This document shows positions 2,461 to 40,717 of a stretch of DNA of 46,012 bases, piece by piece. A model generated the notes under the pieces. That model was given only the letters and a program-made list of their open reading frames with translations, did not search any database and had not been told where the DNA came from. The DNA is from a virus. Numbering within the stretch: position 1 is the first letter of the stretch; each line of letters begins with the position of its first letter. Both the position numbers and the translations under genes were made by a program. The stretch spans positions 1-46,012 of the IMG/VR virus record IMGVR_UViG_3300005265_000012; one strand, given 5' to 3'.

Positions 2461-2518
2461 AATTTGTTTCCTCCTTTTTCTTTTCCTCTTTTTGTGAACA
2501 AAAACGGAAAGATAAATT

Positions 2519-3208: not shown

Positions 3209-3209
3209 C

Positions 3210-4632: not shown

Positions 4633-4715
4633 TTTCTTTCCTCCTTATCTAAAAAAACAAAAGCGAAGCAGACGAGTTCACTGTCACTGTAATTTCAAAC
4701 CATTTTCAAAGAAGC

Positions 4716-5051: not shown

Positions 5052-5068
5052 TCCAGCCCCCTGCTTTG

Positions 5069-5683: not shown

Positions 5684-5697
5684 AGCTTCCTCCTTTC

Positions 5698-9489: not shown

Positions 9490-9958
9490 GTCTTAAGCGC
9501 CTCCTCCAAAATCGTATTGGTCTTATTATCACTCCTGTTCTATACAGGACAGTGATCTGCTTCTCATCACCTAGATAGATCCCCACATGATTGCTGACAT
9601 CCAATTTTGTTAGTGCATACACCAAAACATCCCCTCGGTAGAAATTGTCCAAATCAGACAGCTCCTTCGCCTCTACACCATCTTTCAGAAGCTTCCAGTG
9701 TTTCTGAAAATAGTTTAAAACTAGCTCCTTTTTCATGTGCAAAGCCCAATCTCTGGGATAGTATGAGTAGGAAAGTTCTTTCAACACGCCCAGCTCCAAC
9801 AAAGACGCTCCCAATAAGAGAGCACAGTCCACACCTCTTTTCTTCACATGACACATATGCTTGTAGGGAGTGCCCAGCCATGATAGTAGAATGCGTTCAT
9901 ATCTTTTCCACTTCTCATCGTCAGCAAAGTAGTAGTTGTCTTTTATTTCATCCCCCAT
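9464..9958 (-). CDS. NlpC/P60 family tail peptidase
   Basis: The 164-residue protein has the fold markers of NlpC/P60 cysteine peptidases: SWLGTPYKH, then RGVDCALLLG with candidate nucleophile C45, and SNHVGIYLGD with candidate His H124. In siphophages such as lambda (gpK) and in GTAs (g14) this enzyme sits between the hub and tail-tip genes and cuts peptidoglycan during tail assembly or DNA entry. Its start overlaps the gpL-like gene upstream by 16 bases, and its end overlaps the next gene by 26, so translation is probably coupled. Length and position fit the family. Confidence 0.85.
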   Translation of the reverse strand: MGDEIKDNYYFADDEKWKRYERILLSWLGTPYKHMCHVKKRGVDCALLLGASLLELGVLKELSYSYYPRDWALHMKKELVLNYFQKHWKLLKDGVEAKELSDLDNFYRGDVLVYALTKLDVSNHVGIYLGDEKQITVLYRTGVIIRPIRFWRRRLRHVFRLYKK

Positions 9959-16397: not shown

Positions 16398-16994
16398 TTA
16401 GGATTCTGCTTCGAAGTAAACTCTTTCTCCTACTATCCTTTCATTTCCATGAGCTGAGCTGATGTAGCTATAAGCATCAAAGCCAAGAGCGATCTTGCCT
16501 GCATCATCAGGCCGTAGATTTTCAGTATATTCAGTCTTCGCAGAGACCTCTGGGAAATAGTGGACAACTTGAGTTCCATCTAGAAAGTCAGCAACACCAA
16601 GAAGAGCATATTTCTTCAGCTGAGTCCTTCCAAAAGGAGCTCTCGTGATGCCTGGCGTGCTGCACTCCTGCACATCCACCCCTAAAGCCTTGCTAACAAT
16701 TGCGTTAGACTTTCCATAGACAGAGATCGTCAGCTCGCCATCCACCCCAATGATTGCTTCGTATTGCAAGGCCTTCGGGAGGCCTAGCTTGAGTTGGTAT
16801 TTCTCCTTTCTGATAGTGATTGTAGGACTGTCCTCTACAACAGCCCCTAGATTGGTGAAGCCAGCTGGAGGAGTGTTGACATCAATCCTACCGCTACACG
16901 GATCCCATTCTTGAGGATAGTCGGCAATCAAGAGTTGCTCAATAGCTAGACTGACTTCTGCTTCAATGATTTCATTGTCATAGGTCTTGCCCAT
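16398..16994 (-). CDS. Major tail tube protein
   Basis: A 198-residue protein placed directly before the tail chaperone, where siphophages encode the tube subunit. The pattern FTNLGAVVEDSPTITIRKEK and VDGELTISVYGKS, with alternating beta strands and the small loop around KAL, fits the tail tube/Hcp-like fold, in which an early LG-x-V..E segment and strand pairs recur. Its start lies inside the last 17 bases of the large glycosyltransferase gene upstream, with GAGGTG eight bases before ATG. There is no added Ig-like domain. It should polymerise into the tail tube. Confidence 0.85.
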   Translation of the reverse strand: MGKTYDNEIIEAEVSLAIEQLLIADYPQEWDPCSGRIDVNTPPAGFTNLGAVVEDSPTITIRKEKYQLKLGLPKALQYEAIIGVDGELTISVYGKSNAIVSKALGVDVQECSTPGITRAPFGRTQLKKYALLGVADFLDGTQVVHYFPEVSAKTEYTENLRPDDAGKIALGFDAYSYISSAHGNERIVGERVYFEAES

Positions 16995-19740: not shown

Positions 19741-21158
19741 AGCTTCGGTTTCCTCCTTCGTATAAGCCAGTCTATTATAGTATTTACAGTGCAGTTCTCA
19801 GAACCTATAGAAAGGGGAAGATACCAAGAGCAATGGGGAGGAGCCCAGCTGGTTTGAAAGCCAGCAGGAAATGGTTCTTTACTGTGAGTTACACCCTCCT
19901 CAGCCCAGAGCATTACTGTGTCTTTTCTGTAGTGAACAGCCAACATACCTATGCCAGAAGAGACAGCTACAACCAAAGAGCAGGATTTGAGGAGAGAGAG
20001 AAGCTGAGCTGAAGTAGTTTGGCCTATCATGGAGTCAGCTTGAAGGCCCCTGTGATAGGCTTGAAGATAGAAGTCCATGTCATCTCTCCCATGATAAGGA
20101 AGTTTCGTGCCAACCACAACGGGTCTCGAACCATAGAGAAGAGACAATTGGCGAGAGAGATTGACCCAATCTTCTATCGCCCAACTACCATCGTTCCATA
20201 TCTCGTTTGTATACCAACAACTCATGTAGAAGAGGACTTTAGGGGGAGGGCTGACAGGTAGCGGAGAAACAGGAAAAGAGGGATAAGACCAATTCGTCTC
20301 ATATTGAGGGAGAATGTTCTCCAACCTCTCCCCTCTTTCAAGAGGATGGTTGAAGAAAAGCAGGAAGTCTATGCCATCCCTGTTGTATTCCACTGAAGCC
20401 TGCACATAAGGATGGGAACGCCATGTTCTATATTCATAGGAGTCTACAAAAGGGACAGAAGCAACCAGAGCTCCAGCCCTTCTTGGAGGATGGTCGTTTA
20501 TGATCAGGTGAAGCTTGCACGGTCTTCTGCTGTTCTTCAGAGATTGAAGTTTGGTCAGAATCCAGTGGACATCGCCCAAGCCTGCAGGGACGCCCACAGA
20601 GACAATCTCTTCCTGAGTCGGGTCGGGTGTCGCCATAATAGTCTTGCCGTCAGAGAGAGGAGCGACAGTGATAGTTTTGTAGCCAGAGTCAGAGAGAAGA
20701 TTGATAATTTGCGTTGAAGTGAAAGTGCGAAGGAGCAAGTCCCCTCCCCTCCTTCCTCGGACTTCTATGAATAGACACCCAGACCGCTTGAGGAGTTTTC
20801 TCACCCTGAGAAGGTAGGCTTTGGGATCTAAAACTCGGTCGAGAAGAGCTCCCATATAAATGACGCCAAAGGAGTCGTTAGGGATGAAGTGGTTTGACAG
20901 CAAGTCTCCAAAAAAGACCCTCCGCTTCAAAGACTCAGGGACTGCATTATAGTCCAATTCTGTGCCTTTGGAGCCAGGGATTTGTTCAAGGAGATATCCA
21001 CAGCCACAGCCTATATGAAGGACAGATGGAAGAGGGTTCATATCTTTAATGCGACGGACTACCCATGCGTCTCCAAGAGTCCACACTCGTTGGTGGAAGA
21101 GGCCGTTTGTGTAGTGGGAGATTAGCTCATTAGAATCTATCATCTCTTCTTTCTCCAT
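19737..21158 (-). CDS. Methyltransferase / GT9-like glycosyltransferase fusion
   Basis: A 473-residue protein. Residues 40-170 are a class I SAM methyltransferase: VLHIGCGCGYLLEQI (motif I), GTELDY, FGVIYMGALLDRV, LKRSGCLFIEV. From about 190 it is a GT-B glycosyltransferase resembling the heptosyltransferase (GT9) family: GLGDVHWILTKL, then KVLFYMSCWYTNEIWNDGSW, and the C-terminal acceptor-domain pattern IGQTTSAQLLSLLKSCSLVV with VSSGIGMLAVHYRKDTVMLW. The GxGDxHW start is shared with the protein at 24425-25426, so the two GT9 halves are paralogues. The last four bases overlap the next glycosyltransferase gene, so the pair is coupled. The likely role is transfer and methylation of a sugar; the acceptor is unknown. 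Confidence 0.8.
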   Translation of the reverse strand: MEKEEMIDSNELISHYTNGLFHQRVWTLGDAWVVRRIKDMNPLPSVLHIGCGCGYLLEQIPGSKGTELDYNAVPESLKRRVFFGDLLSNHFIPNDSFGVIYMGALLDRVLDPKAYLLRVRKLLKRSGCLFIEVRGRRGGDLLLRTFTSTQIINLLSDSGYKTITVAPLSDGKTIMATPDPTQEEIVSVGVPAGLGDVHWILTKLQSLKNSRRPCKLHLIINDHPPRRAGALVASVPFVDSYEYRTWRSHPYVQASVEYNRDGIDFLLFFNHPLERGERLENILPQYETNWSYPSFPVSPLPVSPPPKVLFYMSCWYTNEIWNDGSWAIEDWVNLSRQLSLLYGSRPVVVGTKLPYHGRDDMDFYLQAYHRGLQADSMIGQTTSAQLLSLLKSCSLVVAVSSGIGMLAVHYRKDTVMLWAEEGVTHSKEPFPAGFQTSWAPPHCSWYLPLSIGSENCTVNTIIDWLIRRRKPKL

Positions 21159-26959: not shown

Positions 26960-29155
26960 TTAGAGTTGCCAGAAAAATTCTGGATGTTTCTCTGCATAAG
27001 ATTTCACCTTTGCTGGTGAAGCGTTTATGTCAAATCCGTAGCGGAAGATCTGCGAGCGATGATATATCTTCTTTATTTCCCAGAGCTTCTGACAAAGTCC
27101 TCTTCTAAACATGAAGTCCCACCAAGTGTCAGGATGGTGTTTGTAGGTGTCAATGAAATTGTTGTCAGGCCATTTCCAACTCTTCATGCAGGGTTGACAG
27201 CCGTTGCGGCTGAGGCGTCCTGGGTCGTAGAGAGCGCACATAGGAATATTGTTGGTGCGAAAATATTGGAGGACTTCGTCAGGCTTCCAATGCCATATTG
27301 GCCACAGAATCCATTTCTTATCTCCCGAGTGAAAATAGAAATGTCCTTTTTGTAGCCAGACTAGCATGCGTTGCCGAGTGTTATGGGAGATGAAGCAGTT
27401 GGAAACATAGGTGTGAGAAGGTATAGTAGTGAAGTCTCCAAGAGGAAGATGAGTGGAGAGCTTTTCCACAAACTTGACTTCATCTATAAAGAGACGGTTT
27501 CGCCTCAGCCAATCCTTCACAGCAGGACTGCACCGTAGATAGCCTCGTTCGCATCTTTCCTCTGGAAGCCTTTTGTTTCTAGAAAGCCAATCGTTCCCCT
27601 TAACTTTTCCTAAAGGAGGAGTTATGTGAAGACTCCAAACTCCCCTCTTCTCGTCCCTGTTCCACCTGCGACAAGAGCGAGAGCACCAAAATCCAGACAA
27701 AAAGCACAGCTGCTGGATTTGTTCTGATGCCTTCTTGTTCGTAACATAAAGGCTCCAAAATTCTCCATCAGAATGTCCATCAGCTTGGATGCGACCGTAG
27801 AGATAGAAGGGGAAATACGCTCCACAGTTCTCAAAAAACCAGTCCCCTGCTTCCCCTTTGGTTGAGATTGCGTGGAAGAAGTCTTTAAGTTTGGCGGAGT
27901 TGTATATCAAGTCGAATGTTTTAAATGTCCTCCAACCTTTCGTTGTAGAAATGTATAGTTGCTTTGTGTGTTTAGGTTTGAGAATGGGAATAGCTTTAAA
28001 TACATTCCACATGTGCTCTCTAACCAGAGGGAAGTCGTCAGAAGAAACAGAAAAGGAAATGCCATCATGATACTTCCCTCCTTTTCCACGAAAGCTTCCA
28101 TTTCCATCAAAATAACCTACCAGCCAGGCCAGCTCAGGGGTCATTCTAGACGGCGTCGCAACCAGCCTGTCTTCTCGGGGCTGTATGTTCAGGGGGATGT
28201 CAGAGTCAAAAGTTCTTTTGCCTTCAATTAAAACAGGCTGACCTCGCTTCAAATCCTTCACCTGAGTCCATGTTAAAGAGGGAGTGGCCTCTCCTTGTAA
28301 GCCCGACACCGTTCGGACTCTGTGATGAGGGTGAGTTATAAGTTCAAGGCCAGAGAGGAGCTTTACCCTAAAGACTGGGCAGATGCCAGCGTTGACAGAT
28401 CGTTTCACAAGAGATAAGGAGTGACCGTCAGCAATGTATGTGCCAGCCTTGATTTTGTCCAAGCGGATGAGCCCTCTCTTAGTAGCACCGTAAGAGGAGC
28501 TCAGCAGCAGACATTCTTGAGCCATAAGCCCCATTGCAGTGCAGTCAGAGCCAACATATCTAGCATGGCGATCCATCGGAACTTTCTTCAAAACATCCGA
28601 ACATGCGCCACTTATGCGAGCCCTTGTTATAGCCAGAGCAGCCAATTCGTCTCCTCTTTTACGAGCGATGGCAGCATTGACCTTCCAAGTTCCTGGCATT
28701 GCAAAGCGGTCTCCTCCAAGAATTGGCCAGCCATGAGTCCTCGTCATCTGCCAGAAGGAAGTGGGAGCTTTGAGTCGGGTGTATTTTAAGTTGCGGAGTT
28801 TGGCGTAGAGGTCAACATAGGCTAAAGTCTCAGGCGGTTCCACGCCCGAGTCTACATAAACCACTTCCACCCTATCCATTACGCCTGCTCGAAGGGCTAT
28901 CTCTATGAGCAAGGTGCTGTCCTTCCCTCCACTCCAGCCTATGAGAATTCTTTTGACTTTGGTGATCGCCTCTCTCATAATTTGGGCGGAGAGAGCAAAC
29001 TTATCCTCAAGAGAGTAGGTTTGATACTCACCAAGAAGGTGCATCCTCTGTTTTATGCGAGTGGAGGATAAATAGCCATGGCGGGATTTGGGAGTGCCTC
29101 TTGAAGATCCAGGTTTTTTATTCCTAACTCTCAGCTGGACTGTGTCTTCTTTCAT
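26960..29155 (-). CDS. PAPS-reductase-like PP-loop protein interrupted by an intein
   Basis: The 731-residue precursor becomes a 353-residue protein after removal of a 378-residue intein. The extein is a PP-loop ATP pyrophosphatase of the PAPS reductase/adenylyl-sulfate type: IGWSGGKDSTLLIEIALRAG (SGGKDST at 75-81), YVDSGVEPPET, and GLMAQE/TRQRM, which is the family's GxxAxExxxR motif formed only after splicing. The C-terminal part has GCQPCMKSWKW, a Cys pair. Phage proteins of this family are common but their reaction is not settled; candidates are sulfur transfer to nucleic acid or to a sugar. It opens the sugar-enzyme block after a hairpin, so it may be expressed separately from the capsid gene. 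Confidence 0.85.
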   Translation of the reverse strand: MKEDTVQLRVRNKKPGSSRGTPKSRHGYLSSTRIKQRMHLLGEYQTYSLEDKFALSAQIMREAITKVKRILIGWSGGKDSTLLIEIALRAGVMDRVEVVYVDSGVEPPETLAYVDLYAKLRNLKYTRLKAPTSFWQMTRTHGWPILGGDRFAMPGTWKVNAAIARKRGDELAALAITRARISGACSDVLKKVPMDRHARYVGSDCTAMGLMAQECLLLSSSYGATKRGLIRLDKIKAGTYIADGHSLSLVKRSVNAGICPVFRVKLLSGLELITHPHHRVRTVSGLQGEATPSLTWTQVKDLKRGQPVLIEGKRTFDSDIPLNIQPREDRLVATPSRMTPELAWLVGYFDGNGSFRGKGGKYHDGISFSVSSDDFPLVREHMWNVFKAIPILKPKHTKQLYISTTKGWRTFKTFDLIYNSAKLKDFFHAISTKGEAGDWFFENCGAYFPFYLYGRIQADGHSDGEFWSLYVTNKKASEQIQQLCFLSGFWCSRSCRRWNRDEKRGVWSLHITPPLGKVKGNDWLSRNKRLPEERCERGYLRCSPAVKDWLRRNRLFIDEVKFVEKLSTHLPLGDFTTIPSHTYVSNCFISHNTRQRMLVWLQKGHFYFHSGDKKWILWPIWHWKPDEVLQYFRTNNIPMCALYDPGRLSRNGCQPCMKSWKWPDNNFIDTYKHHPDTWWDFMFRRGLCQKLWEIKKIYHRSQIFRYGFDINASPAKVKSYAEKHPEFFWQL
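27380..28513 (-). other. Intein with LAGLIDADG endonuclease (378 aa)
   Basis: The intein runs from C215 to N592 of the precursor. It shows the N-terminal nucleophile Cys, block B ELITHPHHRV (TxxH at 274-277), two LAGLIDADG motifs (LAWLVGYFDGNG 342-353 and LYGRIQADG 452-460, with candidate metal Asp D350 and D459), and C-terminal HTYVSNCFISHN followed by Thr as the first extein residue. It is inserted inside the conserved GxxAxExxxR motif of the host protein, a typical intein site. The endonuclease looks complete, so the intein may still be mobile. Confidence 0.9.
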
Positions 29156-29306: not shown

Positions 29307-30350
29307 TTACTCGCCATAGCCTTGAGGGGCATCTACCTTTACATTGGTAGCCAAGACCATGCAATTCTTGTTTTCTATTAGCGCATCAGTCTCAGAGTAG
29401 GTGGTGTTCTGCCATACATCCTCCCTAGGTTTGAATTCCCAATACATCTCCACATGCCTGCGGTAGATGTAGACCAAATTCTGAAGGTAGGTGAGAATTA
29501 TATAACCATGATTGCCTACAGTCCCTACAAGGTGGTCTTCAGGCATGAGAGGAGCCATAATCATAGGAATGCCAAAGGGAGCGACGCTCATGCCTTTGAT
29601 GACTTCATCTCCCAATGCAGTCTGTCTTTCTGCTAGCTTTGAAGTCCACCGAATGTTGAGCCTAGGCCCTACAATCCAGCGCAGGTCTGCTGGATTTTTG
29701 AGGTAGGGAGAAGGCATTGCCTCCAGCATGGCTTCAAAGAGCTTGACAGATATGTTTTTTGAGCCTGCATCAACAATGTGGCATGTAGGAGCTGTCATTG
29801 CTATTTTCAATATGCCATCGTTGCAGCGAAGCAGTGTTCTCTGCATGTCATTCGGATCTTCTGGCAGGTCAGTGTCTCCTTGAATCCAAAGGAGTTCGTA
29901 GTCAGTGGAAATTCGACGAGCAAAGGCTCGCATTAAGGTCTCCCTGAAGTCTCCTCTCGGCTCCTGCCCACCTTGAGGTTGCTTCGCAGGCGGAGGTGTT
30001 CCCCCTCTCATCTCAGACTCTATGTTCTCTAAGAGAGCCGTCATGTCTAAGTCAAAGGCAGAGCGAAGCCTCTCCATGCTGTATTCCACCTTGCCGAAGA
30101 CATTGCTCCAGTCCACCTCTTTGTGTGGAGTGGCTGCTGGAGTGGTGACGACAGAGCCTACATTCAAGGTGTCGATCTGACCTTTTGATCTGGTTTTTCC
30201 CTCATTGCGAACTTGGGAGAGAAGTGTTGAGTATTCCAAGGTCAAGTCTAAAAAGCGATCTGCCTGTTCTGGCTGCAAAATGCCCCCAGCCTCTAAGTGA
30301 GTGGTGGTGAGGGTTTTGAGGTATTCTTTTATGCGATCGTTAGCGCCCAT
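29307..30350 (-). CDS. Major capsid protein (HK97 fold)
   Basis: A 347-residue protein directly downstream of the protease-scaffold gene, the usual place for the HK97-type capsid protein. Segments that fit are the helical N-arm (DRIKEYLKTLTTTHLEAGGI), RTLLRCNDGILKIAMTAPT, LEAMPSPYLKNPADLRWIVG and GIPMIMAPLMPEDHLVGTVG, the P-domain and spine region common in these proteins. No protease site was confirmed, but cleavage of the N-arm is expected from the neighbouring protease. The terminator hairpin follows. It is a possible target of the sugar enzymes encoded next to it. Confidence 0.85.
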   Translation of the reverse strand: MGANDRIKEYLKTLTTTHLEAGGILQPEQADRFLDLTLEYSTLLSQVRNEGKTRSKGQIDTLNVGSVVTTPAATPHKEVDWSNVFGKVEYSMERLRSAFDLDMTALLENIESEMRGGTPPPAKQPQGGQEPRGDFRETLMRAFARRISTDYELLWIQGDTDLPEDPNDMQRTLLRCNDGILKIAMTAPTCHIVDAGSKNISVKLFEAMLEAMPSPYLKNPADLRWIVGPRLNIRWTSKLAERQTALGDEVIKGMSVAPFGIPMIMAPLMPEDHLVGTVGNHGYIILTYLQNLVYIYRRHVEMYWEFKPREDVWQNTTYSETDALIENKNCMVLATNVKVDAPQGYGE

Positions 30351-30374: not shown

Positions 30375-31061
30375 CTAGAACGGAAAAACGCCCTTCCAAA
30401 AGCTCTTGTCAGAGCCTGGAATGGGAGAAGCATCAGATCTCCTTCCTGGAAATGCTTCCTCCAACTTCTTCAACCTTCCGTCCATGGATTTTGTTTGTTC
30501 CTCTCTAGTAACTTTCTCTTTCTCGACAATCTGTTTTATCGCCTCCACAGCATCTTTTACAGCCTTCACTCCCTTGGAGAGTTCCTCTGAAGAAAGAGAC
30601 ATAGCTTCCCCTACAGTTTTGCTTATAGTTTCAGGCAGACCCTCCGTTAAAGCTTTAGATACACCCTCCAAAGCAGCCACCCTCTTCTCCAGGTCGTCTA
30701 GTCTCTTCACGATACTAGCAAGTTGCTCAGCATAATAACCTTGATCAGGAGGAGGGGGATAGCCGTATTGAGCTCTCAGCTGCTCCTTGGCAAAGTCCAA
30801 AATGGCTTGAGTAGCCTTCCCTTTATCTTCATCAGACAAATTGGGAATGGATTCTATTATCTCCTTCAGACCCTCCTGTAGTTGTTGGTCATTAAGCTTC
30901 TGCGCCTCAGCCCCCTGGGCTCTTATATACGAGACAACCTTCTCCTTGACTTCATCTGGAATTGTCCAAGACTGAGGATCGTCTTGCTGTTGTTGAGAGA
31001 CTAAGTCTTTTATCGCATCCTGGAGGGATTTGATCATTTGAGCAATGTTTACTGTGCTCAT
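30375..31061 (-). CDS. Nested scaffold protein (internal start of the protease gene)
   Basis: An in-frame ATG at 31061 is preceded by AAGGGAGGAAAGCA, a strong ribosome site six bases from the start, right where the protease domain ends. It gives a 228-residue protein, MSTVNIAQMIKSLQDAIKDL..., composed only of the scaffold coiled coil. Nested protease/scaffold genes are known in lambda (C/Nu3) and other phages. The separate product would supply scaffold in excess of protease. Confidence 0.7.
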   Translation of the reverse strand: MSTVNIAQMIKSLQDAIKDLVSQQQQDDPQSWTIPDEVKEKVVSYIRAQGAEAQKLNDQQLQEGLKEIIESIPNLSDEDKGKATQAILDFAKEQLRAQYGYPPPPDQGYYAEQLASIVKRLDDLEKRVAALEGVSKALTEGLPETISKTVGEAMSLSSEELSKGVKAVKDAVEAIKQIVEKEKVTREEQTKSMDGRLKKLEEAFPGRRSDASPIPGSDKSFWKGVFPF

Positions 31062-31595
31062 TGCTTTCCTCCCTTCTAGAAAAGAATTAAATTTCTCGTA
31101 AGCATGAACAATAGCAGCAGCTGGATTGCACGGTAGTGCAGTCACGCTCACCTCGGGTATTAGCACGTCATCTATCTCGAAGATCTTCCTCCCATTTTCA
31201 TAAGTCCAATGACCCTCCTTGCCTCTGAGCCTCACAGACATCTTGGAAAGGATCTTTTCTTTTATTTTCGTCCAAATTACATCCTCAGTCTCAGAGATCA
31301 AGCCTTTCACCCAGAGCCCTTTGTCGTCATATCTAGCTGCGTGCACAACACCTATACAAAGGTCAGTGTCATGATTGTAGAAAATGGGAGAGCCTGGAAG
31401 AGAGCTAGCAACCTTCCTTAAACACTCGGAAGTAAGCCTCTCATCCTCCAAATCTATGTCAGTGGTGGTGCAGTAGCCTTCTATAAAGCGTCCAGCCTCT
31501 TCTCCTTCTGCTATCTTAAACGGCCAGAAAAAATCTACAAGAATAGAGGGAGTAGCCCCTTTTCCAGCCTCAGCAGCTACAACGGGAATCGGCAT
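30375..31595 (-). CDS. XkdF-like capsid maturation protease with C-terminal scaffold
   Basis: A 406-residue protein. Residues 15-165 resemble the prohead protease fold (XkdF/S78-like): IEGYCTTTDIDLEDERLTSE, PIFYNHD with candidate His H75, ILSKMSVRL with candidate Ser S120, and VLIPEVSVTALPCNPAA. Residues 180-406 are a helical scaffold with long coiled coils and a C-terminal SFWKGVFPF hook of the kind that contacts capsid protein. The gene has an excellent AAAGGAGG site. An internal start makes the scaffold alone (see nested entry). The enzyme should cut the scaffold and perhaps the capsid N-arm during head maturation. Confidence 0.82.
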   Translation of the reverse strand: MPIPVVAAEAGKGATPSILVDFFWPFKIAEGEEAGRFIEGYCTTTDIDLEDERLTSECLRKVASSLPGSPIFYNHDTDLCIGVVHAARYDDKGLWVKGLISETEDVIWTKIKEKILSKMSVRLRGKEGHWTYENGRKIFEIDDVLIPEVSVTALPCNPAAAIVHAYEKFNSFLEGRKAMSTVNIAQMIKSLQDAIKDLVSQQQQDDPQSWTIPDEVKEKVVSYIRAQGAEAQKLNDQQLQEGLKEIIESIPNLSDEDKGKATQAILDFAKEQLRAQYGYPPPPDQGYYAEQLASIVKRLDDLEKRVAALEGVSKALTEGLPETISKTVGEAMSLSSEELSKGVKAVKDAVEAIKQIVEKEKVTREEQTKSMDGRLKKLEEAFPGRRSDASPIPGSDKSFWKGVFPF

Positions 31596-31663: not shown

Positions 31664-34600
31664 TCATTTGCTCCACATCCCCCAAGGGTCAAATTTGGAA
31701 TTGGAGAGGGAGCCAGTGCTCTCTATGAAGCGGATGTATGAGCGAGGGATTTTGTCAGGGGAGGGAAAGGAGGGACTTCTCGCTCTGTGGGTAGCAACAA
31801 AGTAGCCGTTTTTGTCTCTACCTACAGAAACTCCCCTAAAGCGCCCCCCTTGGTGAGGATGAGTCAGCTCGTTTAGCCCAAGCTCCTCTACCTTCTTGTC
31901 AACCAAGGTGTATTTACCTATCTTTATCTCTTTTTCCGCCTCCTCTTCCTTCAAGGCAGTGGGAGTGCTGCCAGGATCAAGGAGGTGAAAGAGCCAGACT
32001 CTTTGCTCTCCTCCTGCTAGCTCTGGTTTCTGAAGCCGCAGCTCAGAGGGTTTCACGCCCACAACCATGAGCCAGCGGTTCTTGATGACTTGACCGTTGA
32101 GGAGGTAGAAGGCTGAGTGGTGGTCTTCAAAGACGGGGCCAGCTTCGTATGTGCCGTAGTCAGCAGCATACATCCAAGCAAAGTCTTCTTTTCCTGCTCC
32201 AGAGCCTCCAGCGGGGAGATAGGTGGGAGTTCCTATTCCTATGTCAAGCCATTTCTTGGAGCCTATGTTCATTGTGTAGTCTCCTGCCAGAGAGCCTCCT
32301 TGGAGGAGGTGATCTAGGAGTTTCTTCGCACAGTCAATGCACGCCTGAGCTGTGTAGCCGCTGCGGTCTGCTGGCCTCGGGCAGAGTTTGTTAGGGATGA
32401 AGAGAGTGTATTTGCAAAAGGCGTCGGTGCCTGGGATTTCAAAGCGGAGGTCGCCGTGGTAGTTTGTCCATGTGTGGACCTGGAAGGTCCATCTCCCTCT
32501 GTCTCCTCTTTGGATCAGCCCCATCCAGTCTTCAGCTTTGAGAGGCTTACCTTCTTCAGTTGAGGGTGTGGGATCTTTCACCTTCTTTTTGAACTTTGCA
32601 GCAGCCCTTTTCGCAGAGGAAGTGAGGAAGTCTAGGAAAGAAAGGAAGACGGATGTAGACTTTGACATGGTTTTGACGAGGGTGTCAAGATGGCGAGTGG
32701 TGCTGGGACAGTGTTTGTCTTTGCGAAGTTCTACAGGTCGGGGAAGGAGAAGAGAGTAAGTGCCGTCCTCGTTTTTCCAAGCTCTGTCAACTCGGATCTC
32801 TAGAATAGAGCCGACAGGAGCGTCTACGACAGTGGCCATGGAGTTGCCGCAGGAAACTTCTTCGCCGTTCGGTCCAGTCACAGCCAGTTCATAGACCCAT
32901 CGGGTGGGAGGGCCTCCAGCAATTTGATGTTTGCCTGTGACTTTGCACAAGACCTCGCTGACAACCTTGACTTTTGCCCAGTCAGCTGTGGTTTCTCCCC
33001 AGTGATATATAGTGTCTGCCTTGAACATCGCCCCCTCTGACCAGCTTGGTTTAGAGACTTGTTCTGCAGCAGAGAGAAATTGCTCCTTGGTTGTAACTGG
33101 GGCAGTGGGAAGGAGCTTCACATGCTTGAGTTGAGGGTTAGCTTTGAGGAAGAAGGCAAGAATCTCCCGCCGCTCAGAGTAGGTCTGAGTGTCAAGCCAT
33201 TCATGGTCAAGGCAAAGTATGTCATAGGCAAGGATGACAACGTTCTTCTCTCTCGGATCAACTCCTTTGGTCATGAAGATAGAAGCCAGCTCTTCTCTGG
33301 AAGCTATTTCTCCACTAGATTTTGCTAAGACAGCTTCACCATCTATCACACCTCCTCGGACAGTAAGCAGTTCCTGCTTCAAGGTGGGAAATTTGGAGGA
33401 GACATCATCGGGGGAGTCGCTTGCCCATATAGAATTTCCTTTTCCACAAAAATTCAATCGAACTCTAAATCCATCACATTTTTGCTCTACAAAAACTCGC
33501 CCTGTCTCTTTTACCTTCTCCTTGCCCCACTGATCCCAAGCCTCTTCAAAGGAGGAGAACTGAAGGGCAGGTTTGAGGGGTGGGAAATAAGAGCCGACTA
33601 TACGGGGTTTTTGTTTGATCTCCTCAGAAGACTTTAATGAAGAAGGCCAGTGAATCGTAGGGTTTGGCGCTCTGAGCAAGACTTTGTGGTAAAGAGGGAG
33701 GTAAGGGCCGTGAGGGCCTTCTGGTCTGTAAATGATCTCCAATTGGTCAGTGGGAAACCCCATGCGACGGAGATTGCTGGCAATTTGAGTCTCCAAATCC
33801 ATGTCTCTGTCTTTTCTTCTGACCAGGATGTCCCAATCATTTGGCTGTTTCCCCCCTTGCACCCCAGACCCTACAACGGAGACATAGTCTGGAATTGTCG
33901 TCAAACTGGGGAGAGAGGCAAGCGCCTGTAATTCTTTCGGTAGAGAGGGATAGGCACAGAGGATCGCCTCTCCCGTAGGGAGGAGGTCAACAGAATAGGG
34001 GAGAGGCGAGAGCCAGCTGCGAAGGTGGTATTCATTTTCCCATTCAATTTGATGATCTTCACATCTACCTTTACCTAAAGGAACCACATGGACAGACGCG
34101 TCTGAGGCAACCCTCAAGCACTGCTCTAAAACCTGTTTGGCGTTGTCCAAGTGTTCTATAGTGTGCAAAGAGCAAATAGTGTTGAAGGAGTTGTCAGGGC
34201 ATTGCTTGAGATAGTCGTAAATGTCAGAGCAAGTGGTTTGAAGCCCCCTGGCTTCACAAACCTTCAAAGCCCCCTCGTCAATGTCCACTCCTTCAGCATA
34301 ATAGCCCGAAGCCCCAAGGGAGTCTAGAAGATCGCCCCCAGAACAGCCCAGCTCTAGGACTCTAGGCCCAACTAGGTGTTTGAGTAAAGAGCCTGCTTCT
34401 ATGATCCACCCTGTGCGCCGAGGGTGAGTGTATAGCCAGCGGGAGAGAAGAGTCAAAGAAGAGGTCAGGTCTTTGAGGCTTTTCATTTCGTCGGGCAGAA
34501 AGTCATCCAAATCGTCCTGTTTCATATGGACGACATCTCTTCTCAACATCTCCTCAACAACCCTGCGGTGAAAGTCAATGATGTCTTGTTTGGTTTTTAT

Positions 34601-35011
34601 TTCCGAGCTCCATGGCTCAGACCCCTTGTCGGTCAATCGCCATATCTTGTGACAGGCGTAGTGATATTGTAAAAGAGCAGGAAGGGCAAGTGAAGAAAAG
34701 TCAGTGAGAGTCTTGTTTGATTCTGTTTGCTCACTTCTTTTTTTCAGATCAAGAGGCAGAGTTTCATCTAGCTCATCAACAATGCAGTGGCGGAAGCCTA
34801 GCTCAAACATCTTGCGAACTGTCTTAGCGTGTCTGCGAGAGACTTCTTCTAGAGTGATTTGCTCGCCCGTCTTTTGATCAACCATTGGTTTCCCTGAAGC
34901 TTTTATAGAAGCATACCAAGCATGAAAAATTCGGTGATCATCTAAAAGCTGTTTTCGCATTAGGGGTGTGAATTTTTCTGTAGGAGTTTGAACTAATGCT
35001 CTATAAGGCAC
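31664..35011 (-). CDS. Methyltransferase / nucleotidyltransferase / ATP ligase / LigD-phosphoesterase polyprotein
   Basis: A 1,115-residue protein with at least four parts. Residues 216-330: class I methyltransferase (RVLELGCSGGDLLDSLG, ICSLHTIEHLDNA). Residues 370-450: nucleotidyltransferase-like (SVVGSGVQGGKQPNDWDILV, with D392 and D394). Residues 500-770: ATP ligase with EQKCDG (K511), VIDGEAV, EGAMFK, WAKVK and an OB domain. Residues 840-980: phosphoesterase of the LigD type, VHTWTNYHGDLRFE, with the H-x5-H-x-D-x-R pattern (H846, H852, D854, R856) and DHH at 963. The N-terminal 200 residues (a twice-repeated acidic motif near 76-90 and 163-177) are unknown. Start GTG follows AAAGGAGG and lies six bases after the portal stop. 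Such a chain could cap, trim and seal nucleic-acid ends; its place between portal and protease is unusual. Confidence 0.85.
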   Translation of the reverse strand: MPYRALVQTPTEKFTPLMRKQLLDDHRIFHAWYASIKASGKPMVDQKTGEQITLEEVSRRHAKTVRKMFELGFRHCIVDELDETLPLDLKKRSEQTESNKTLTDFSSLALPALLQYHYACHKIWRLTDKGSEPWSSEIKTKQDIIDFHRRVVEEMLRRDVVHMKQDDLDDFLPDEMKSLKDLTSSLTLLSRWLYTHPRRTGWIIEAGSLLKHLVGPRVLELGCSGGDLLDSLGASGYYAEGVDIDEGALKVCEARGLQTTCSDIYDYLKQCPDNSFNTICSLHTIEHLDNAKQVLEQCLRVASDASVHVVPLGKGRCEDHQIEWENEYHLRSWLSPLPYSVDLLPTGEAILCAYPSLPKELQALASLPSLTTIPDYVSVVGSGVQGGKQPNDWDILVRRKDRDMDLETQIASNLRRMGFPTDQLEIIYRPEGPHGPYLPLYHKVLLRAPNPTIHWPSSLKSSEEIKQKPRIVGSYFPPLKPALQFSSFEEAWDQWGKEKVKETGRVFVEQKCDGFRVRLNFCGKGNSIWASDSPDDVSSKFPTLKQELLTVRGGVIDGEAVLAKSSGEIASREELASIFMTKGVDPREKNVVILAYDILCLDHEWLDTQTYSERREILAFFLKANPQLKHVKLLPTAPVTTKEQFLSAAEQVSKPSWSEGAMFKADTIYHWGETTADWAKVKVVSEVLCKVTGKHQIAGGPPTRWVYELAVTGPNGEEVSCGNSMATVVDAPVGSILEIRVDRAWKNEDGTYSLLLPRPVELRKDKHCPSTTRHLDTLVKTMSKSTSVFLSFLDFLTSSAKRAAAKFKKKVKDPTPSTEEGKPLKAEDWMGLIQRGDRGRWTFQVHTWTNYHGDLRFEIPGTDAFCKYTLFIPNKLCPRPADRSGYTAQACIDCAKKLLDHLLQGGSLAGDYTMNIGSKKWLDIGIGTPTYLPAGGSGAGKEDFAWMYAADYGTYEAGPVFEDHHSAFYLLNGQVIKNRWLMVVGVKPSELRLQKPELAGGEQRVWLFHLLDPGSTPTALKEEEAEKEIKIGKYTLVDKKVEELGLNELTHPHQGGRFRGVSVGRDKNGYFVATHRARSPSFPSPDKIPRSYIRFIESTGSLSNSKFDPWGMWSK

Positions 35012-35017
35012 GATAGC

Positions 35018-37087
35018 TTACCTCCTTTCTCCTCGCCTTCTTGGAACCAGCACACAACAACAATTCCCTCTGCACCGAGTAGATCCATCGCCAGGGAGAC
35101 AGGGAATCAGGTCAGGCTCATAAGGGCCTTCCATTGCCATTCTGATACAGTCAGGACATGTGTCTACATATCTAGGAACCCAATCAAGGACACAATCGTT
35201 CGTTTTGGCTACCTCCTTGGCGATGTGAGAGTCCAGCATCTTCATAGTACCAGCATAGAGAGAAGAGCGCCCTTTCAGCGGGGTGAGAATTTTGGTTAAA
35301 CCATCCCACAGCCGATCACCAGAGAGACCTACTCTGTAGAGAGCTCGGCCTCTCGTTTTCGCATCTGCCATCCAAGTGTTTTCCAAATATTCTGCAAAAG
35401 TGGCCTTCACCAGCCCACTAGCTTTTTCCAAATCTTCAACACTTATAGGATAACCCATTCTTTTAAAGCGCTCTCTTATCAGAGGGTAAAAGGATTTCAG
35501 GCCAGAGCCAAACCTGCCTCTTAAGTCAAGAGCTAAGTTGTTGATAAGCCTCGTATAGGCAGACAAAGTAGCAGGTCTTCTTTCCAACACCCTGTCCCAT
35601 GCTTTGAAGAAGGAGTCAGTCAAAGCCTCCCTCAATCCTATGTAAAAGTCAAAGTCTATTTGCTTCACAGACTCGTCAGAAGACATTCCCAACACCTCTT
35701 CTGGTGATGGAGAAGGAGCCCGTTCTGTTTTTCTAGGAGGAAGTCCAAGCTCTTCTCGAACCTCTTCTGGATCAAGGACACCCCATTGAACATAGTTAGC
35801 GTGGATTTTTGACTCGCTCTCTCTGTCTCTAAGCTCAGGAGGTTTGAACGCAAACACCCAATCCGTGATTCCAAAACCCATCTGGAGAAGTTTGTTTATC
35901 TTGCGAGCCACTTTGGCTTGTCGTGGCGTGACTATGCCATATTTGTAAGCTTCAAGCTGCATCAAATCCCGTCCTCCTCCTAGATGAGCCCCCTCTACAA
36001 GAGCTATCCTAGCAGGAGGAACACCATGGCTGATCAAAATGTCAATTCGAGCTTCCTTCTTGAAGTCTTCAGAGAAAAGTCTGCGGAGAGGTTCTTCAAG
36101 CTTTTGAAACTTGACTTGCACGTCTTTCCCAGGGACAGACATCACAAGGACATCTCCCCTTCCACGTTCGTGAGCAGCACGGAAGTATTCTTCAACAAGC
36201 TCCTGGTCTTCATCGCTCAACACTCCTCCAGAAACGACCACAGCGTATGCTGGAAGGGCAGGTCCTTTCAATCCCTTGAGAGCATAGTCTTCAAAGAGAG
36301 CTATAGCCACAATTGATGGAATCACTGGGATGTAGTCAGGAGCTCCATACCAAGGAGACAAAGAGTGGTAAAGAGAAAAAACAACGAGCTCGTTAGCTGC
36401 CTCTAAAGGACTCAAAAGAGGATTGGGTCTTCCAGTCAGGTCTTTCAAATTCCAATTGATAGTTCCATTCGTCCTAACTGCCTTGTGAGGAAACTCCTCG
36501 AAGTAGCGTGTCTCAATTCCCACTTTTTGCACCCAGCCTGTGTCTCCTTTCTTTTTGAAGAAGGAGTAGGAAGGAGCATGCCACAGTTTGACTGGTTCCC
36601 CTACCATGTTTCTAGAAACTTCTAGTATCCCAAACCCATAAGTCTCCATATCAATGAGAGCTCTTGATAATAGTTCTGAAAAGCCGTGCTCTGAACACTC
36701 TTCAAAAAAAGCTTCCGCCTTCTCCTTTTGTTTAGGGTCAGGATTCTCAATTCCTGGTTTGGCTTTTATAACATAGTCAGAACTCACATCATCAGCCTTC
36801 GCCCTACAACACCTAAGATGAACGGAAGAAACGTCCAGCAATAGAGACAAAGCATCAAGATCAAAACGGCGAGGCTCTAAGTCTCCTAAAGTGTAAACCT
36901 TTTCCTCTATCTGTTTAGATGCTGTGACCAAAACCGTCGACGCTGTCGGAGGACTAAACAAGGGAGACGACGGGACTGGAGTTATCCAAGTGAACTTTCC
37001 AGACTCCGTGACAGTCGCTTGAATAGTTGGAGTCTCAAAGTTCTTCCCGACCTCTTCTTCTCCAACTGATTTTCTTTTGTCTTCCGT
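35018..37087 (-). CDS. Portal protein with MuF-like C-terminus
   Basis: A phage portal of the PBSX/DUF935 type: EEKVYTLGDLEPRRFDLDAL at the start, LIDMETYGFGILEVSRN, FSLYHSLSPWYGAPDYIPVI, and LISHGVPPARIALVEGAHLG. The C-terminal 230 residues resemble the head morphogenesis (MuF) domain and end in a Cys cluster (DTCPDC, RCRGNCCC). The start is uncertain. Without a canonical codon the frame begins at TTG 36961, which has no ribosome site. GGAGG at 37093-37097 lies five bases before an in-frame ACG at 37087; it gives 42 more residues. I list the longer form. The portal is the dodecameric ring for DNA passage. Confidence 0.8.
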   Translation of the reverse strand, partial: TEDKRKSVGEEEVGKNFETPTIQATVTESGKFTWITPVPSSPLFSPPTASTVLVTASKQIEEKVYTLGDLEPRRFDLDALSLLLDVSSVHLRCCRAKADDVSSDYVIKAKPGIENPDPKQKEKAEAFFEECSEHGFSELLSRALIDMETYGFGILEVSRNMVGEPVKLWHAPSYSFFKKKGDTGWVQKVGIETRYFEEFPHKAVRTNGTINWNLKDLTGRPNPLLSPLEAANELVVFSLYHSLSPWYGAPDYIPVIPSIVAIALFEDYALKGLKGPALPAYAVVVSGGVLSDEDQELVEEYFRAAHERGRGDVLVMSVPGKDVQVKFQKLEEPLRRLFSEDFKKEARIDILISHGVPPARIALVEGAHLGGGRDLMQLEAYKYGIVTPRQAKVARKINKLLQMGFGITDWVFAFKPPELRDRESESKIHANYVQWGVLDPEEVREELGLPPRKTERAPSPSPEEVLGMSSDESVKQIDFDFYIGLREALTDSFFKAWDRVLERRPATLSAYTRLINNLALDLRGRFGSGLKSFYPLIRERFKRMGYPISVEDLEKASGLVKATFAEYLENTWMADAKTRGRALYRVGLSGDRLWDGLTKILTPLKGRSSLYAGTMKMLDSHIAKEVAKTNDCVLDWVPRYVDTCPDCIRMAMEGPYEPDLIPCLPGDGSTRCRGNCCCVLVPRRRGERR

Positions 37088-37104: not shown

Positions 37105-38814
37105 TTAGTAAAACAGACCTTGGTGATACAAACTCATTCTCCTCCTAAGTTGAGTTTTCGTAGAAGGAGCAGGAGGTAGCCTAGATTGGGACGGCCCTTC
37201 AGGAGCTGTGACTGTCCTTCCAATAGAAGTCCTAACCGACACAGAGGAAGAGACCCCCATTGTCCTGCAGTGAAAGGTGACCCCTGCAACAGCATCAGTT
37301 ATATCTTTCTGCCCTCCTACAGTGTGGTCAATCTTTCCATTCGGAAGGACAACCAGACTGCGTGCACACTCTAAGTAGCCTTCCACAGGATATATATCAA
37401 TCAGGTCGTCGTAGTGGGCTTCCAACCAAGTCTCATAGCTGTGAGGGGTTCTGTCTACACTGTGAATACCTACAGAATAACCCCTTTTTGTTAGGATTTG
37501 TATAGAATCAGTGGAAGCAAACTGGTCAAAGGTTATATAACCAAAGCGAAAGCCTCTCCGAGCAAGTTCGTAGATTATCTCCCTAATTCGCCCCAAATCT
37601 ACAACCCCTCCAGTTCGTGGGTCTTCTACATAAACCAAATCTATGACAGTGAGGAAGCCCTCCTGATGTCCCATAGCCATTGCTGCCTTGTCTCTCTTCA
37701 ACCCCAAGTCAGTGTGGATGTAGTAGAGAAACCCAGGTTTGGGTTTCAACCACTCCGCTAGCCTACCTCCTGGAAGGACAGGATTCTTCCTAGAGGTGTT
37801 GACCCTAATCAAATCTAAACGAAGAACAAAAGATTTAGTAGATTGAATCAACACGCTAGCTCTATCTCTCAAAAACCTCCGAGGATTGCGGTCATAGGCT
37901 CTCTGAAAGCAAAGAGGAACATGCTTTATATCCTCTGGCTCAGTTTCAGGATCATAGCTATCCACAATACCGTATTCAGGAAGTCTTTCTGCCGTGCTTC
38001 GAGAGACCACAAAATAAGGAGCCCACTTACCAGGTTTGGCTTCCCAAAGGGCACGGCGAGTGGCGTAGCCGTGTTCTCCCATTTCCTTTACCGCTTCATA
38101 CCGTGTCTCTGCGAAGAGGCCTGAAGTTCGTGCAGAGGTGACAAGCTCTATCAACCCCCTGTCATCAAATCGGGTCTCTATCCTCTCAACAAGAGAGTGA
38201 TATACATTGGCAGCTTGATCTAAATCCTCTCCCTTCAAAGAGCGTTTGATATACCAAGCTTGCTCATCAGCGCAACCTAAAATAATGTTAAAACCTGTTG
38301 GAATAGTTTCTGCAGCCCCTCCAGAGAGAAGAAAGACATTTCCTGGAAACTTCAATATGGAAAGCCCCATCTCCTTTCTCTCAGTAGGAATACAATGTTT
38401 AGTGAACCACGGCAAATTGAAAATGTGCCTTTTGGCTTCCTCATAAACTATTTCTCTAGCCTGTAGTTGTCGCAGACTCATTATCACGATTCCTATAGGG
38501 CTGCCAGGAGCCAAGCCATACACCCTAGCAGGGTCTCGCAGATGAGTGAGCCAGTAAAGGGTGAGGACAATACTAAGATGGAGGAAAGTTGATTTTCCAG
38601 AACCAATCCCATCTATCTTTACCGCCTCGTTAACAGGATTTTCTAGAACTCTCTTCAAGTCGTATCGCACAGAAGGCCAAACGAATGAACCAAAAGGAAG
38701 AACGTTATCTAAAAACTCATCAACAGAAGGAAGGCGGTCATAAAAAACAGAAGACGCCACGCCTCGGGCTACCAGCTTGTCATAAACCCTGTTCAACCAC
38801 CAATATATCGCCAT
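37105..38814 (-). CDS. Terminase large subunit
   Basis: A 569-residue packaging motor. Walker A is DGIGSGKST (about 69-76), Walker B is ILGCADEQAWY (DE catalytic pair), and the nuclease part shows HTDLGLKRD, YITFDQFAST and GQKDITDAVAG. Start is ATG at 38814 with GGGAG eight bases upstream; a TTG one codon earlier is not needed. The C-terminal 50 residues are a Pro/Ser-rich linker and a basic end (SLYHQGLFY), longer than in many homologues and perhaps for portal docking. Order small terminase, large terminase, portal is standard. Confidence 0.93.
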   Translation of the reverse strand: MAIYWWLNRVYDKLVARGVASSVFYDRLPSVDEFLDNVLPFGSFVWPSVRYDLKRVLENPVNEAVKIDGIGSGKSTFLHLSIVLTLYWLTHLRDPARVYGLAPGSPIGIVIMSLRQLQAREIVYEEAKRHIFNLPWFTKHCIPTERKEMGLSILKFPGNVFLLSGGAAETIPTGFNIILGCADEQAWYIKRSLKGEDLDQAANVYHSLVERIETRFDDRGLIELVTSARTSGLFAETRYEAVKEMGEHGYATRRALWEAKPGKWAPYFVVSRSTAERLPEYGIVDSYDPETEPEDIKHVPLCFQRAYDRNPRRFLRDRASVLIQSTKSFVLRLDLIRVNTSRKNPVLPGGRLAEWLKPKPGFLYYIHTDLGLKRDKAAMAMGHQEGFLTVIDLVYVEDPRTGGVVDLGRIREIIYELARRGFRFGYITFDQFASTDSIQILTKRGYSVGIHSVDRTPHSYETWLEAHYDDLIDIYPVEGYLECARSLVVLPNGKIDHTVGGQKDITDAVAGVTFHCRTMGVSSSVSVRTSIGRTVTAPEGPSQSRLPPAPSTKTQLRRRMSLYHQGLFY

Positions 38815-38891
38815 CAAAGAGTCTCCCTCAGCTCCTCAACACTCAACGAGCTCGTCAGTTCAACGAGGAAACTGAAGTCAGAGATGGTTTC

Positions 38892-39713
38892 TTAGAAAAT
38901 AACAGTCTTCTCTACAGGGACAAGGCCTTTCATAGCATGGCTGGATTTGAAGAGATACAACCTATCTCCGCCAATATAACAAGCTGTCAGACCTGATGTA
39001 AAAGCAGGATCTTTGGCCGCTGGAAAAATGCAAAACATCCCGTCATCGCTGAGATGGCCTTTCACCAAATAAATCAAATTCCCCTCGTATTTGAAAAGAA
39101 GACGAGAGGACTTGAGAGTCTTAGAAGCCAACTCCAACCCTCGAATTCTTTTGAAAAGTTTGTTTATAGCAGCAGGGTAAGGAAAGAGTTTGATAGCCTC
39201 CTGTCTCATCTTCTCAATTTCCTGGCGCCGTTTGACCTCAGCTCTGCAAGTTTTCAGAAGAGAGCTTATATTAGGGCCAAAGATTCTTCGGAGGGTTTCT
39301 GTCACAGCTTGTCTCGTCAGTCCTTTGTTTTTTGCTCCAGCAGAGATTGACTCTCTACAGGAAAGAACATATTTTAACAGGACAAGAATGGATTGACCAT
39401 GAGTCTCCTGGAACCTCCAGTAGGTGAGTTCAGCTCCATCTGGTTGAACAGAGCCTTTATATTTGAGAACAATGTGGCGGGGTATTTTCAACATAGACGC
39501 CGCCTTACGGGTAGTGTAACCTCTCGCCAGTAGCCACATAACTTTAGCTCTCTTGTCGCTGGTGTTTATCCTATCCCTCCACCTAGTGAGTTCATCAGCA
39601 TAGGCACAAAGCTGATCGGGCACGGGAGGGCGTCCCGCTTCTATGGAAGAAACAATACAAGAAATAGTTCTCCTAAACAGTTCAGTGTCCATCATAGTTT
39701 CTTCTTTCTTCAT
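38892..39713 (-). CDS. Probable terminase small subunit / HTH DNA-binding protein
   Basis: A 273-residue protein. A helix-turn-helix-like segment lies at about 55-85 (AKVMWLLARGYTTRKAASML, then PRHIVLKYK) and a second one near 130-150 (NKGLTRQAVTETLRRIFG). The C-terminal third is beta-rich (LLFKYEGNLIYLVKGHL). It is directly before the large terminase, where the small subunit is expected, but it is longer than most and I did not see a clear family motif. It overlaps the DnaX-like gene (ATGA). It could instead be a regulator. Confidence 0.5.
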   Translation of the reverse strand: MKKEETMMDTELFRRTISCIVSSIEAGRPPVPDQLCAYADELTRWRDRINTSDKRAKVMWLLARGYTTRKAASMLKIPRHIVLKYKGSVQPDGAELTYWRFQETHGQSILVLLKYVLSCRESISAGAKNKGLTRQAVTETLRRIFGPNISSLLKTCRAEVKRRQEIEKMRQEAIKLFPYPAAINKLFKRIRGLELASKTLKSSRLLFKYEGNLIYLVKGHLSDDGMFCIFPAAKDPAFTSGLTACYIGGDRLYLFKSSHAMKGLVPVEKTVIF

Positions 39714-40717
39714 TCCTTCCTCCTCAAAGACAGTAGATCAAGCCATAGTCCTTTGAAGACTAGCAGAGGCTCAGCTCCTTTGCAAGCTCTCAAATATGAA
39801 GTCCATAGCACATCAACAAATCTGTCAGCCTTTCTCTCAGCAGAGAGATATTGAGAGCAGACAAGGTCAAGGATGTCCCGAAGCATGGACAGCGCCTGAA
39901 GGGAAGACAGACCTCTAATCTCTTGTTCAAAGCCAGGATAGTCTTGAGACAGCATGCAGCGAAGAACTCTTTTCACCTTCACTTTTGAAATGAACCAAGG
40001 TTCAGCCTCTAACATCTCCACGCCAATGGGAGAGTCTCCCGCTCTCAGGAAGAGTCTTTCTAAAACCATGAGAGCGTCTCGCATAGACCCCCCTGCGTGC
40101 CTGGCTATCGCCTTCATGACAGAGGCGTCGTAGCGATCATAGCCTTCCAGCTTCGCCACTTCACACAGCCTCTTAAATGTGTCCTCAACGGAAAGAGGAA
40201 CAAAATCAAGCCTCAAAGAGCGAGATATTACAGTAAAAGGAACTTTTTCAGGGCTGGTGGTGCACATTATTATATAACAGGTAGCAGGCGGTTCTTCCAA
40301 CAATCGAAGAAGGGCGTCAAACGCTTCATTTGACGCTGAGTGGACTTCATCTAAAATGAAAACTCTCGCCTTCCATGTAGGAACTACAGCAGCTTCTTGG
40401 ACTAATCTTCTCGCATCAGCTACCAACCCTTTGCTTCCCATGTCCTGCTCTATTATATCTGGGTGAGCGTGTGAGGAGAAAGCCCTACAAGACTTACACT
40501 TACCACATACAGAAGGAGAAGCATCACAGTTCAACGCCCTTGCAAAAATTCTAGCAAGCGTGGTTTTTCCTATACCATGCTGTCCAGTGAAAAGAAAAAC
40601 TTTGGGATGTCTTCGAGCTGCTGCCGCCTTAATTACCTCAACAGCAGCTCTTTGTCCTACAACCTCTTCAAAGGTAGAAGGTCTGTATTTAGTTGCAAGG
40701 CTTGTGTGAAAGCCCAT
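39710..40717 (-). CDS. dnaX: DnaX-like clamp loader ATPase
   Basis: A 335-residue protein closely resembling bacterial DNA polymerase III gamma/tau: ATKYRPSTFEEVVGQ, Walker A GQHGIGKTT (45-53), a zinc motif with C64, C71, C74 and C77, Walker B with DEVH (123-126), EAFDALLRLLEEPPATCYII, and sensor SRS (165-167). It lacks the long tau C-terminus, so it corresponds to gamma. Clamp loaders open the beta clamp and place it on primed DNA. Phages rarely carry dnaX; here it is in an operon with MazG and the methyltransferase. Strong GGGAGG ribosome site. Confidence 0.9.
   Translation of the reverse strand: MGFHTSLATKYRPSTFEEVVGQRAAVEVIKAAAARRHPKVFLFTGQHGIGKTTLARIFARALNCDASPSVCGKCKSCRAFSSHAHPDIIEQDMGSKGLVADARRLVQEAAVVPTWKARVFILDEVHSASNEAFDALLRLLEEPPATCYIIMCTTSPEKVPFTVISRSLRLDFVPLSVEDTFKRLCEVAKLEGYDRYDASVMKAIARHAGGSMRDALMVLERLFLRAGDSPIGVEMLEAEPWFISKVKVKRVLRCMLSQDYPGFEQEIRGLSSLQALSMLRDILDLVCSQYLSAERKADRFVDVLWTSYLRACKGAEPLLVFKGLWLDLLSLRRKE

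Follow-up and report, generated by a model that had tools for sequence, protein, structure and literature searches.

A ligase-phosphoesterase polyprotein in the head operon of an uncultured virus belongs to an apparently undescribed, domain-shuffled family that may process viral DNA ends

Why would a virus keep a protein with the marks of a DNA ligase, a phosphoesterase, a nucleotidyltransferase and a methyltransferase among the genes that build its head? The question is raised by a 1,115-residue protein, P0001, encoded in the IMG/VR virus record IMGVR_UViG_3300005265_000012, of which positions 1 to 46,012 were analysed (46,012 nucleotides, hereafter the window). A preliminary description made from the sequence alone read four enzymatic modules in this protein and suggested a role in processing DNA ends at packaging or entry. 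In this study, P0001 was found to be one member of a large family, apparently undescribed, in which domains are shuffled. The reading that we favour, and to which we give about an even chance, is that P0001 is a polyprotein of the head operon, most likely packaged in the head, that processes nucleic-acid ends and acts on those of the viral DNA during packaging or entry.

Pfam assigns residues 500-682 of P0001 to DNA ligase (PF01068, 6e-19) and residues 215-313 to an S-adenosylmethionine (SAM) methyltransferase (MetW, 1e-12). In PHROGs, the ligase match (phrog_114) reaches residue 771 and a 62-residue family of unknown role, phrog_3666, matches at 1054-1100. Family profiles built without the window sequence were then run on P0001 and on its reversed sequence. 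These leave-one-out profiles recovered two copies of a module that we call HEL (residues 21-75 and 113-162; E 2e-19), the nucleotidyltransferase (NTase, 2e-8) and the ligase (6e-31), and gave no match in the reversed protein. The OB domain (E 0.2) and the phosphoesterase (PE, E 0.09) are weak by profile, and thus their assignment rests on a single collinear BLASTP alignment of residues 362-982 with a protein of the ANMV-1 virus (E=7e-32), on a match of the PE region by itself to the same protein (9e-4) and on structure. The N-terminal 200 residues, earlier left unassigned, are the two copies of HEL, which is predicted to be helical from its sequence pattern and whose profile found no convincing match among solved structures. 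Pfam, the leave-one-out profiles, the ANMV-1 alignment and the PE structure model together bear out the four-domain reading, and the residues named in the preliminary description all lie at the numbers given for them: K511 (in KCDG), H846, H852, D854 and R856, and G381, D392 and D394 of the GSG...DWD motif.

The ligase is a complete ATP-dependent catalytic core, as had been claimed. Residues K511, G514, E559, R572, E659, G660, K664 and K680 show no variation among the 30 copies compared, and the best model matches are to DNA ligases and to ligases of non-homologous end joining (NHEJ; NHEJ_ligase_lig 3e-14). For the NTase, G381 and D394 are kept in 35 of 35 copies and D392 in 33, so that the DxD and a minimal NTase fold stand, but the third carboxylate is not conserved: this position holds D, N, S, R, K or H across the family, and H in the window. 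The family NTase profile ranks terminal deoxynucleotidyltransferase (TdT) and DNA polymerase beta (Pol beta) first in the PDB (E 0.26-0.7), while a structure model with a core confidence (pLDDT) of mostly 76-94 finds its best matches in MNT antitoxin NTases (E 0.03-0.06, probability 0.84-0.94). A minimal Pol-beta-superfamily, MNT-like fold is moderately supported by these data, on weaker evidence than the ligase. Proteins at two loci of the family (loci are numbered with L), L025 and L043, carry two tandem NTase domains, the second without the first Asp of the DxD. The methyltransferase (MTase) is of class I, in agreement with the earlier SAM methyltransferase call, and recurs next to the NTase in L023. 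Its identification as Hen1, based on the stretch DHQIEW, was rejected because DHxxEW is not conserved in the relatives L023 and L033.

An AlphaFold2 model of residues 836-1115 was built with 34 family sequences and therefore tests the fold of the family more than that of the window sequence alone. It contains a beta-rich fold over ~150 residues (pLDDT mostly 75-95), with an unreliable C-terminal stretch of 80 residues. When the PDB was searched with this model using Foldseek, the top seven matches were all LigD-type phosphoesterases and the next match was noise. The best was 3p43 (E=1.1e-5, TM 0.78 by target length, probability 1.00), followed by 3p4h, 5dmp, 3n9d, 3n9b and 2lj6. Independently of the model, the family PE sequence profile matches exclusively the same LigD-type entries in the PDB, and a second PE-like domain present in relatives matches 3p43 at 8e-9. 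The window domain is predicted on this basis to have the LigD-type fold that was first suspected from its motif. Two contrary outcomes, structure predictions without a PE or NTase fold and loss of the H/H/D/R residues in homologues, were looked for and neither was found.

The proposed LigD-type site holds for the metal residues. The two His and the Asp are invariant in 35 aligned copies, the Arg is kept in all of them except ANMV-1, and 174 of the 176 copies in a wider set picked for H-x5-7-H-x-[DE] have it too; the second PE copies are without the metal site. LigD PE acts on 3'-ribonucleotides, and His42, His48, Asp50, His84 and Tyr88 are reported to be essential in LigD of P. aeruginosa (PMC8656161). 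The last two of these are replaced: the HPxxY segment aligns family-wide with [EQ]PxxW, placing E or Q and an invariant Trp at His84 and Tyr88. Thus, LigD chemistry cannot be assumed for the family PE, the site of which appears to be a conserved variant of the LigD type.

A scan of viral records with the P0001 sequence alone found no relative, and profile queries were needed. Among 50,697 phage records, core relatives were seen only in the archaeal ANMV-1 virus. Profile scans of IMG/VR and of archaeal metagenome-assembled genome (MAG) contigs, with near-duplicates removed and loci with an intact PE site kept, gave a family of 99 non-redundant loci, and the idea that the protein is unique to this window was rejected. 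Two further loci, L012 and L049, turned out to hold ordinary ligases and were left out of the family. Within Halobacteriota the gene was found in 6 of 393 genomes, rare as expected for a viral gene. Because the profiles are home-made and some contigs truncated, the domain counts are approximate: the same locus holds a ligase in 85/99, a second PE in 87/99, an NTase in 74/99, HEL in 53/99, an ASCH/PUA-like module (profile match 1wk2/2dp9 at 1e-3) in 41/99, a metallo-beta-lactamase (MBL) fold in 15/99 and a D12 adenine methylase in 11/99. The methylase and MBL domains were verified by Pfam in some loci.

Domain order is shuffled. The PE follows the ligase in most members and one group reads NT-PE-PE-ligase-OB-XkdF. 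The order HEL-HEL-MT-NT-LIG-OB-PE-CT (CT being the C-terminal module) was seen in this window alone. In L023, L028, L029, L036, L042 and L043 the same domains occur as separate neighbouring genes; the adjacency kept after splitting in L028, L029, L036, L042 and L043 argues for a functional unit. Five loci (L033, L034, L039, L045 and L046) have the PE straight after the NTase and no detected ligase domain, which suggests that these two domains are able to act as a pair. The MBL fold (Lactamase_B_2), a possible nuclease, lies inside the family proteins of L032 (586-800 aa) and L047 (40-312 aa). In the archaeal MAG contig L009, unrelated open reading frames separate the ligase and PE parts (2341-5849), reflecting an insertion or an assembly error. 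In the open-licence literature searched on ANMV-1 and its ligase, LigD PE with phage portals, and XkdF with ligase, no account of the family turned up, and its members are annotated at best as 'DNA ligase'.

What ties these proteins to the virus head? Portal, head protease, major capsid protein (MCP) or TerL genes lie in the short flanks of 87 of the 99 loci, the TerL counts being the least secure since the TerL seed (window 37105-38817) itself matched no family and was picked by a Walker-type motif. In PHROG scans of the neighbours, portal families are found upstream and protease or MCP families downstream. In 31 of the 99 loci an XkdF-type head protease ends the same open reading frame (Pfam PF14550: L039 2e-28, L035 3e-28, L047 4e-26, L045 3e-18), a fusion to ligase or PE of which, for XkdF or Peptidase_S78, no published case was found in the literature searched. 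Modules are also common to this family and to portal and head-protease proteins: the portals of L011 and L019 terminate in the ASCH/PUA-like module, a fragment of the L042 portal terminates in CT, and the cultured Moorella phage MTATph1 has HEL in its head-protease gene. In the window, the expected head-operon placement is confirmed, with the portal gene ending 6 bp upstream and the protease gene starting ~70 bp downstream, followed by a capsid-type gene. The separate protease is of the Peptidase_S78 type and not XkdF. The link to the head is stronger than the window alone could reveal because of the XkdF fusions in relatives, and with about one third of the family fused to a capsid protease these proteins probably process viral DNA ends in or from the head.

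The PE fold, the invariant ligase residues and an NTase profile matching TdT and Pol beta point to end processing, and DNA is the likely substrate given the DNA- and NHEJ-ligase matches and the D12 DNA adenine methylases in relatives. In the mechanism that we propose, the protein would be incorporated into the prohead beside the portal, with HEL and CT tying it to the prohead via portal and protease, and the head protease would free it. The ligase-OB pair would seal nicks or join ends, the LigD-type PE fold or folds would bind and trim or sense 3' ends, and the Pol-beta-like NTase may add or sense a nucleotide at the same end. The MTase, together with N6-adenine DNA methylases in relatives, would modify DNA. 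These steps would act on genome ends or nicks during packaging or just after entry, providing end healing, circularisation or protection; a role at either stage is a reasonable inference. More tentative, and in our estimate possible at well below even chances, is the wider proposal of a widespread, undescribed class of capsid-protease-linked, Ku-independent, LigD-like end-joining polyproteins, which would reside in the heads of archaeal and probably bacterial viruses and, once released by the protease, be injected to heal or circularise genome ends.

Comparison with known systems indicates how far the LigD analogy extends. Like P0001, bacterial LigD combines an ATP ligase, an OB domain and a PE fold, and the PE metal triad and Arg52 position are kept. 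Unlike LigD, P0001 has another domain order, a Pol-beta-like NTase in place of the archaeo-eukaryotic primase (AEP) polymerase, and a head-operon setting. No AEP primase-polymerase domain was matched by Pfam or NCBIfam in P0001, and Ku was found in 0 of 22 viral records, which may be fragments, although a positive control genome was detected; classical NHEJ was rejected on these grounds. With the AEP polymerase, the Ku partner and His84/Tyr88 all failing, the protein is LigD-like, not LigD. Mycobacteriophages Omega and Corndog carry Ku genes and make use of the host's LigD to infect (PMC7719229). The closest solved folds to the window PE are archaeal LigD-type 3'-phosphoesterases (PDB 3p43, 3p4h, 5dmp), small PE proteins that keep the LigD-type His84/Tyr88 segment where the viral family has E/Q and W. 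In ANMV-1, an uncultured ANME archaeal tailed virus (KP703175), the gene for AJP62006 sits directly after the portal gene, as in the window, and its NTase-ligase-OB-PE core is collinear with residues 362-982. It differs from P0001 in being without MTase and HEL, in having a second PE-like domain and in a Met at the PE Arg, and it is annotated as an 'ATP-dependent DNA ligase' and nothing more. ANMV-1 (L002) also encodes, at 5862-9368, a 1,168-residue cysteine-rich repeat protein ending in a MuF-like head-morphogenesis domain.

Several observations weigh against the end-processing reading. The replacement of His84 and Tyr88 throughout the family may mean that PE activity is altered or lost, and the window PE is itself divergent, with RGKS replaced and the leave-one-out E of 0.09 given above. 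The third NTase carboxylate is not conserved, the ligase is apparently absent at 14 of 99 loci, some of them truncated, and the lack of Ku in the 22 viral records gives no indication of classical NHEJ. We found no proteomics or biochemistry for any family member, and a place in the head operon could by itself be a matter of late expression and not of packaging.

The same position between portal and protease genes would suit late-expressed repair of the packaging substrate, in which the protein, held at the motor by HEL and CT, works only within the producing cell, sealing nicks and cleaning 3' ends of DNA concatemers that are about to be translocated or are being translocated, and is not ejected. 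Nick repair fits ligase and PE chemistry, and the virus keeps a second, stand-alone ATP-dependent ligase-domain gene (window 240-1394, minus; Pfam 1e-13) near a DnaB-type helicase gene (3210-4448). The head-operon ligase therefore need not serve replication, and that it is the replicative ligase of this virus was judged unlikely. On the flip side, fusion to the internal head protease XkdF points inside the prohead and not to an external motor, and the methylase and MBL-fold modules of relatives exceed what nick repair requires. Unlikely as it is, late repair is the alternative that fares best.

A virion-delivered counter-defence, in which modification or repair shields viral DNA from the restriction systems or nucleases of the host, with end joining as one activity among several, is more doubtful again. 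It would account for the variable accessory enzymes around the core (D12 methylases, another SAM-MTase, MBL-fold and ASCH/PUA-like modules) and for their strong shuffling. Polyvalent proteins, as described by Iyer et al. 2017 (PMC5512222), are encoded by portal-terminase phages, are likely packaged and, like the present family, are large shuffled multi-enzyme proteins in virion-gene contexts. A search of that text returned no ASCH, XkdF or LigD, a 'ligase' passage in it concerns RNA ligases, and polyvalent proteins are said to be scarce in archaeal viruses, which the ligase-PE family includes. Their hallmark domains (zincin peptidase, ArdC-N, PBECR, ART, methylase-SNF2) were not matched in Pfam scans of P0001 and the scanned relatives, so that the family, judged by domain content, appears to resemble polyvalent proteins in architecture and context without their hallmarks. 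Methylases, moreover, occur in about 11-15 of the 99 loci, whereas the core is ligase, PE and NTase.

The general syntax of RNA-repair systems matches a combination of methylase, NTase, ligase and phosphoesterase, and P0001 could in principle heal RNAs of the host or the virus after cleavage by abortive-infection nucleases. In agreement with this, L005 has a weak RNA_ligase match and LigD PE has 3'-ribonucleotide substrates (PMC8656161). However, DNA-ligase models fit the ligase far better and it does not classify as RNA-type, the DHxxEW argument for a Hen1-like MTase fails in relatives, and those relatives carry DNA adenine methylases; we regard RNA repair as improbable. Least credible is a catalytically silent scaffold, with the enzyme folds reused to bind DNA in the inner head, a reading which the missing metal site of second PE copies and the lost His84/Tyr88 and third NTase carboxylate would allow, but which sits poorly with ligase residues invariant in 30/30 copies and a first-PE Arg in 174 of 176 copies having the H/H/D site.

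If the end-processing reading is true, capsid assembly in many uncultured viruses would have end-joining-type chemistry built directly into it. This would explain concretely how, with no help from host NHEJ, some linear viral genomes are healed or become circular when they enter a cell. The family offers LigD PE active-site variants and a Pol-beta-like NTase that is paired with PE whether or not a ligase is present, and HEL is a candidate inner-head targeting module. Coordinates are collected in Table 1.

Table 1. Features of the P0001 gene and its neighbours in the window.
Feature	Position	Strand	Remarks
P0001, 1,115 aa, HEL-HEL-MT-NT-LIG-OB-PE-CT	31664..35011	minus	GTG start at 35011
HEL copy 1, residues 20-82	34766..34954	minus	predicted helical, head-associated; leave-one-out profile
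HEL copy 2, residues 112-169	34505..34678	minus	leave-one-out profile
Class I SAM methyltransferase, MetW/UbiG-like, residues 192-355	33947..34438	minus	Pfam MetW 1.3e-12; relatives L023, L033
Minimal Pol-beta/MNT-like nucleotidyltransferase, residues 375-445 (G381, D392, D394)	33677..33889	minus	
ATP-dependent DNA-ligase NTase domain, residues 492-682 (K511, E559, E659, K664, K680)	32966..33538	minus	
Ligase OB domain, motif-VI-like PRPVELRKDK, residues 691-766	32714..32941	minus	weak in leave-one-out
Predicted LigD-type phosphoesterase domain, residues 836-985	32057..32506	minus	AlphaFold2 model, Foldseek PDB
PE metal-site motif H846-x5-H852-x-D854-x-R856	32444..32476	minus	
C-terminal module CT (phrog_3666), residues 1046-1104	31700..31876	minus	also ends portal fragment in L042
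Shine-Dalgarno GGAGG	35021..35025	minus	9 nt ahead of GTG; abuts portal stop TAA 35018-35020
Portal gene	35018..36961	minus	phrog_12 5.8e-16, Pfam Phage_portal; upstream neighbour, translationally adjacent
Head maturation protease	30375..31595	minus	phrog_80 2e-21, Pfam Peptidase_S78 4e-10; directly downstream
Major-capsid-type protein	29307..30350	minus	phrog_1623 5e-61

Elsewhere in the window, all on the minus strand, a protein that is clamp-loader (DnaX-like) by sequence is encoded at 39710-40717, just upstream of the packaging genes. A PAPS-reductase-like protein (26960-29155) has its domain split by a LAGLIDADG homing-endonuclease match, a likely intein. A 920-residue protein with two glycosyltransferase domains of GT1 and GT2 types (16978-21158) lies beside a methyltransferase-like protein, and the tail genes (5698-11337) are like those of gene-transfer agents and phiJL001-type siphoviruses (Rcc01698_C, BR0599, Gp84_N).

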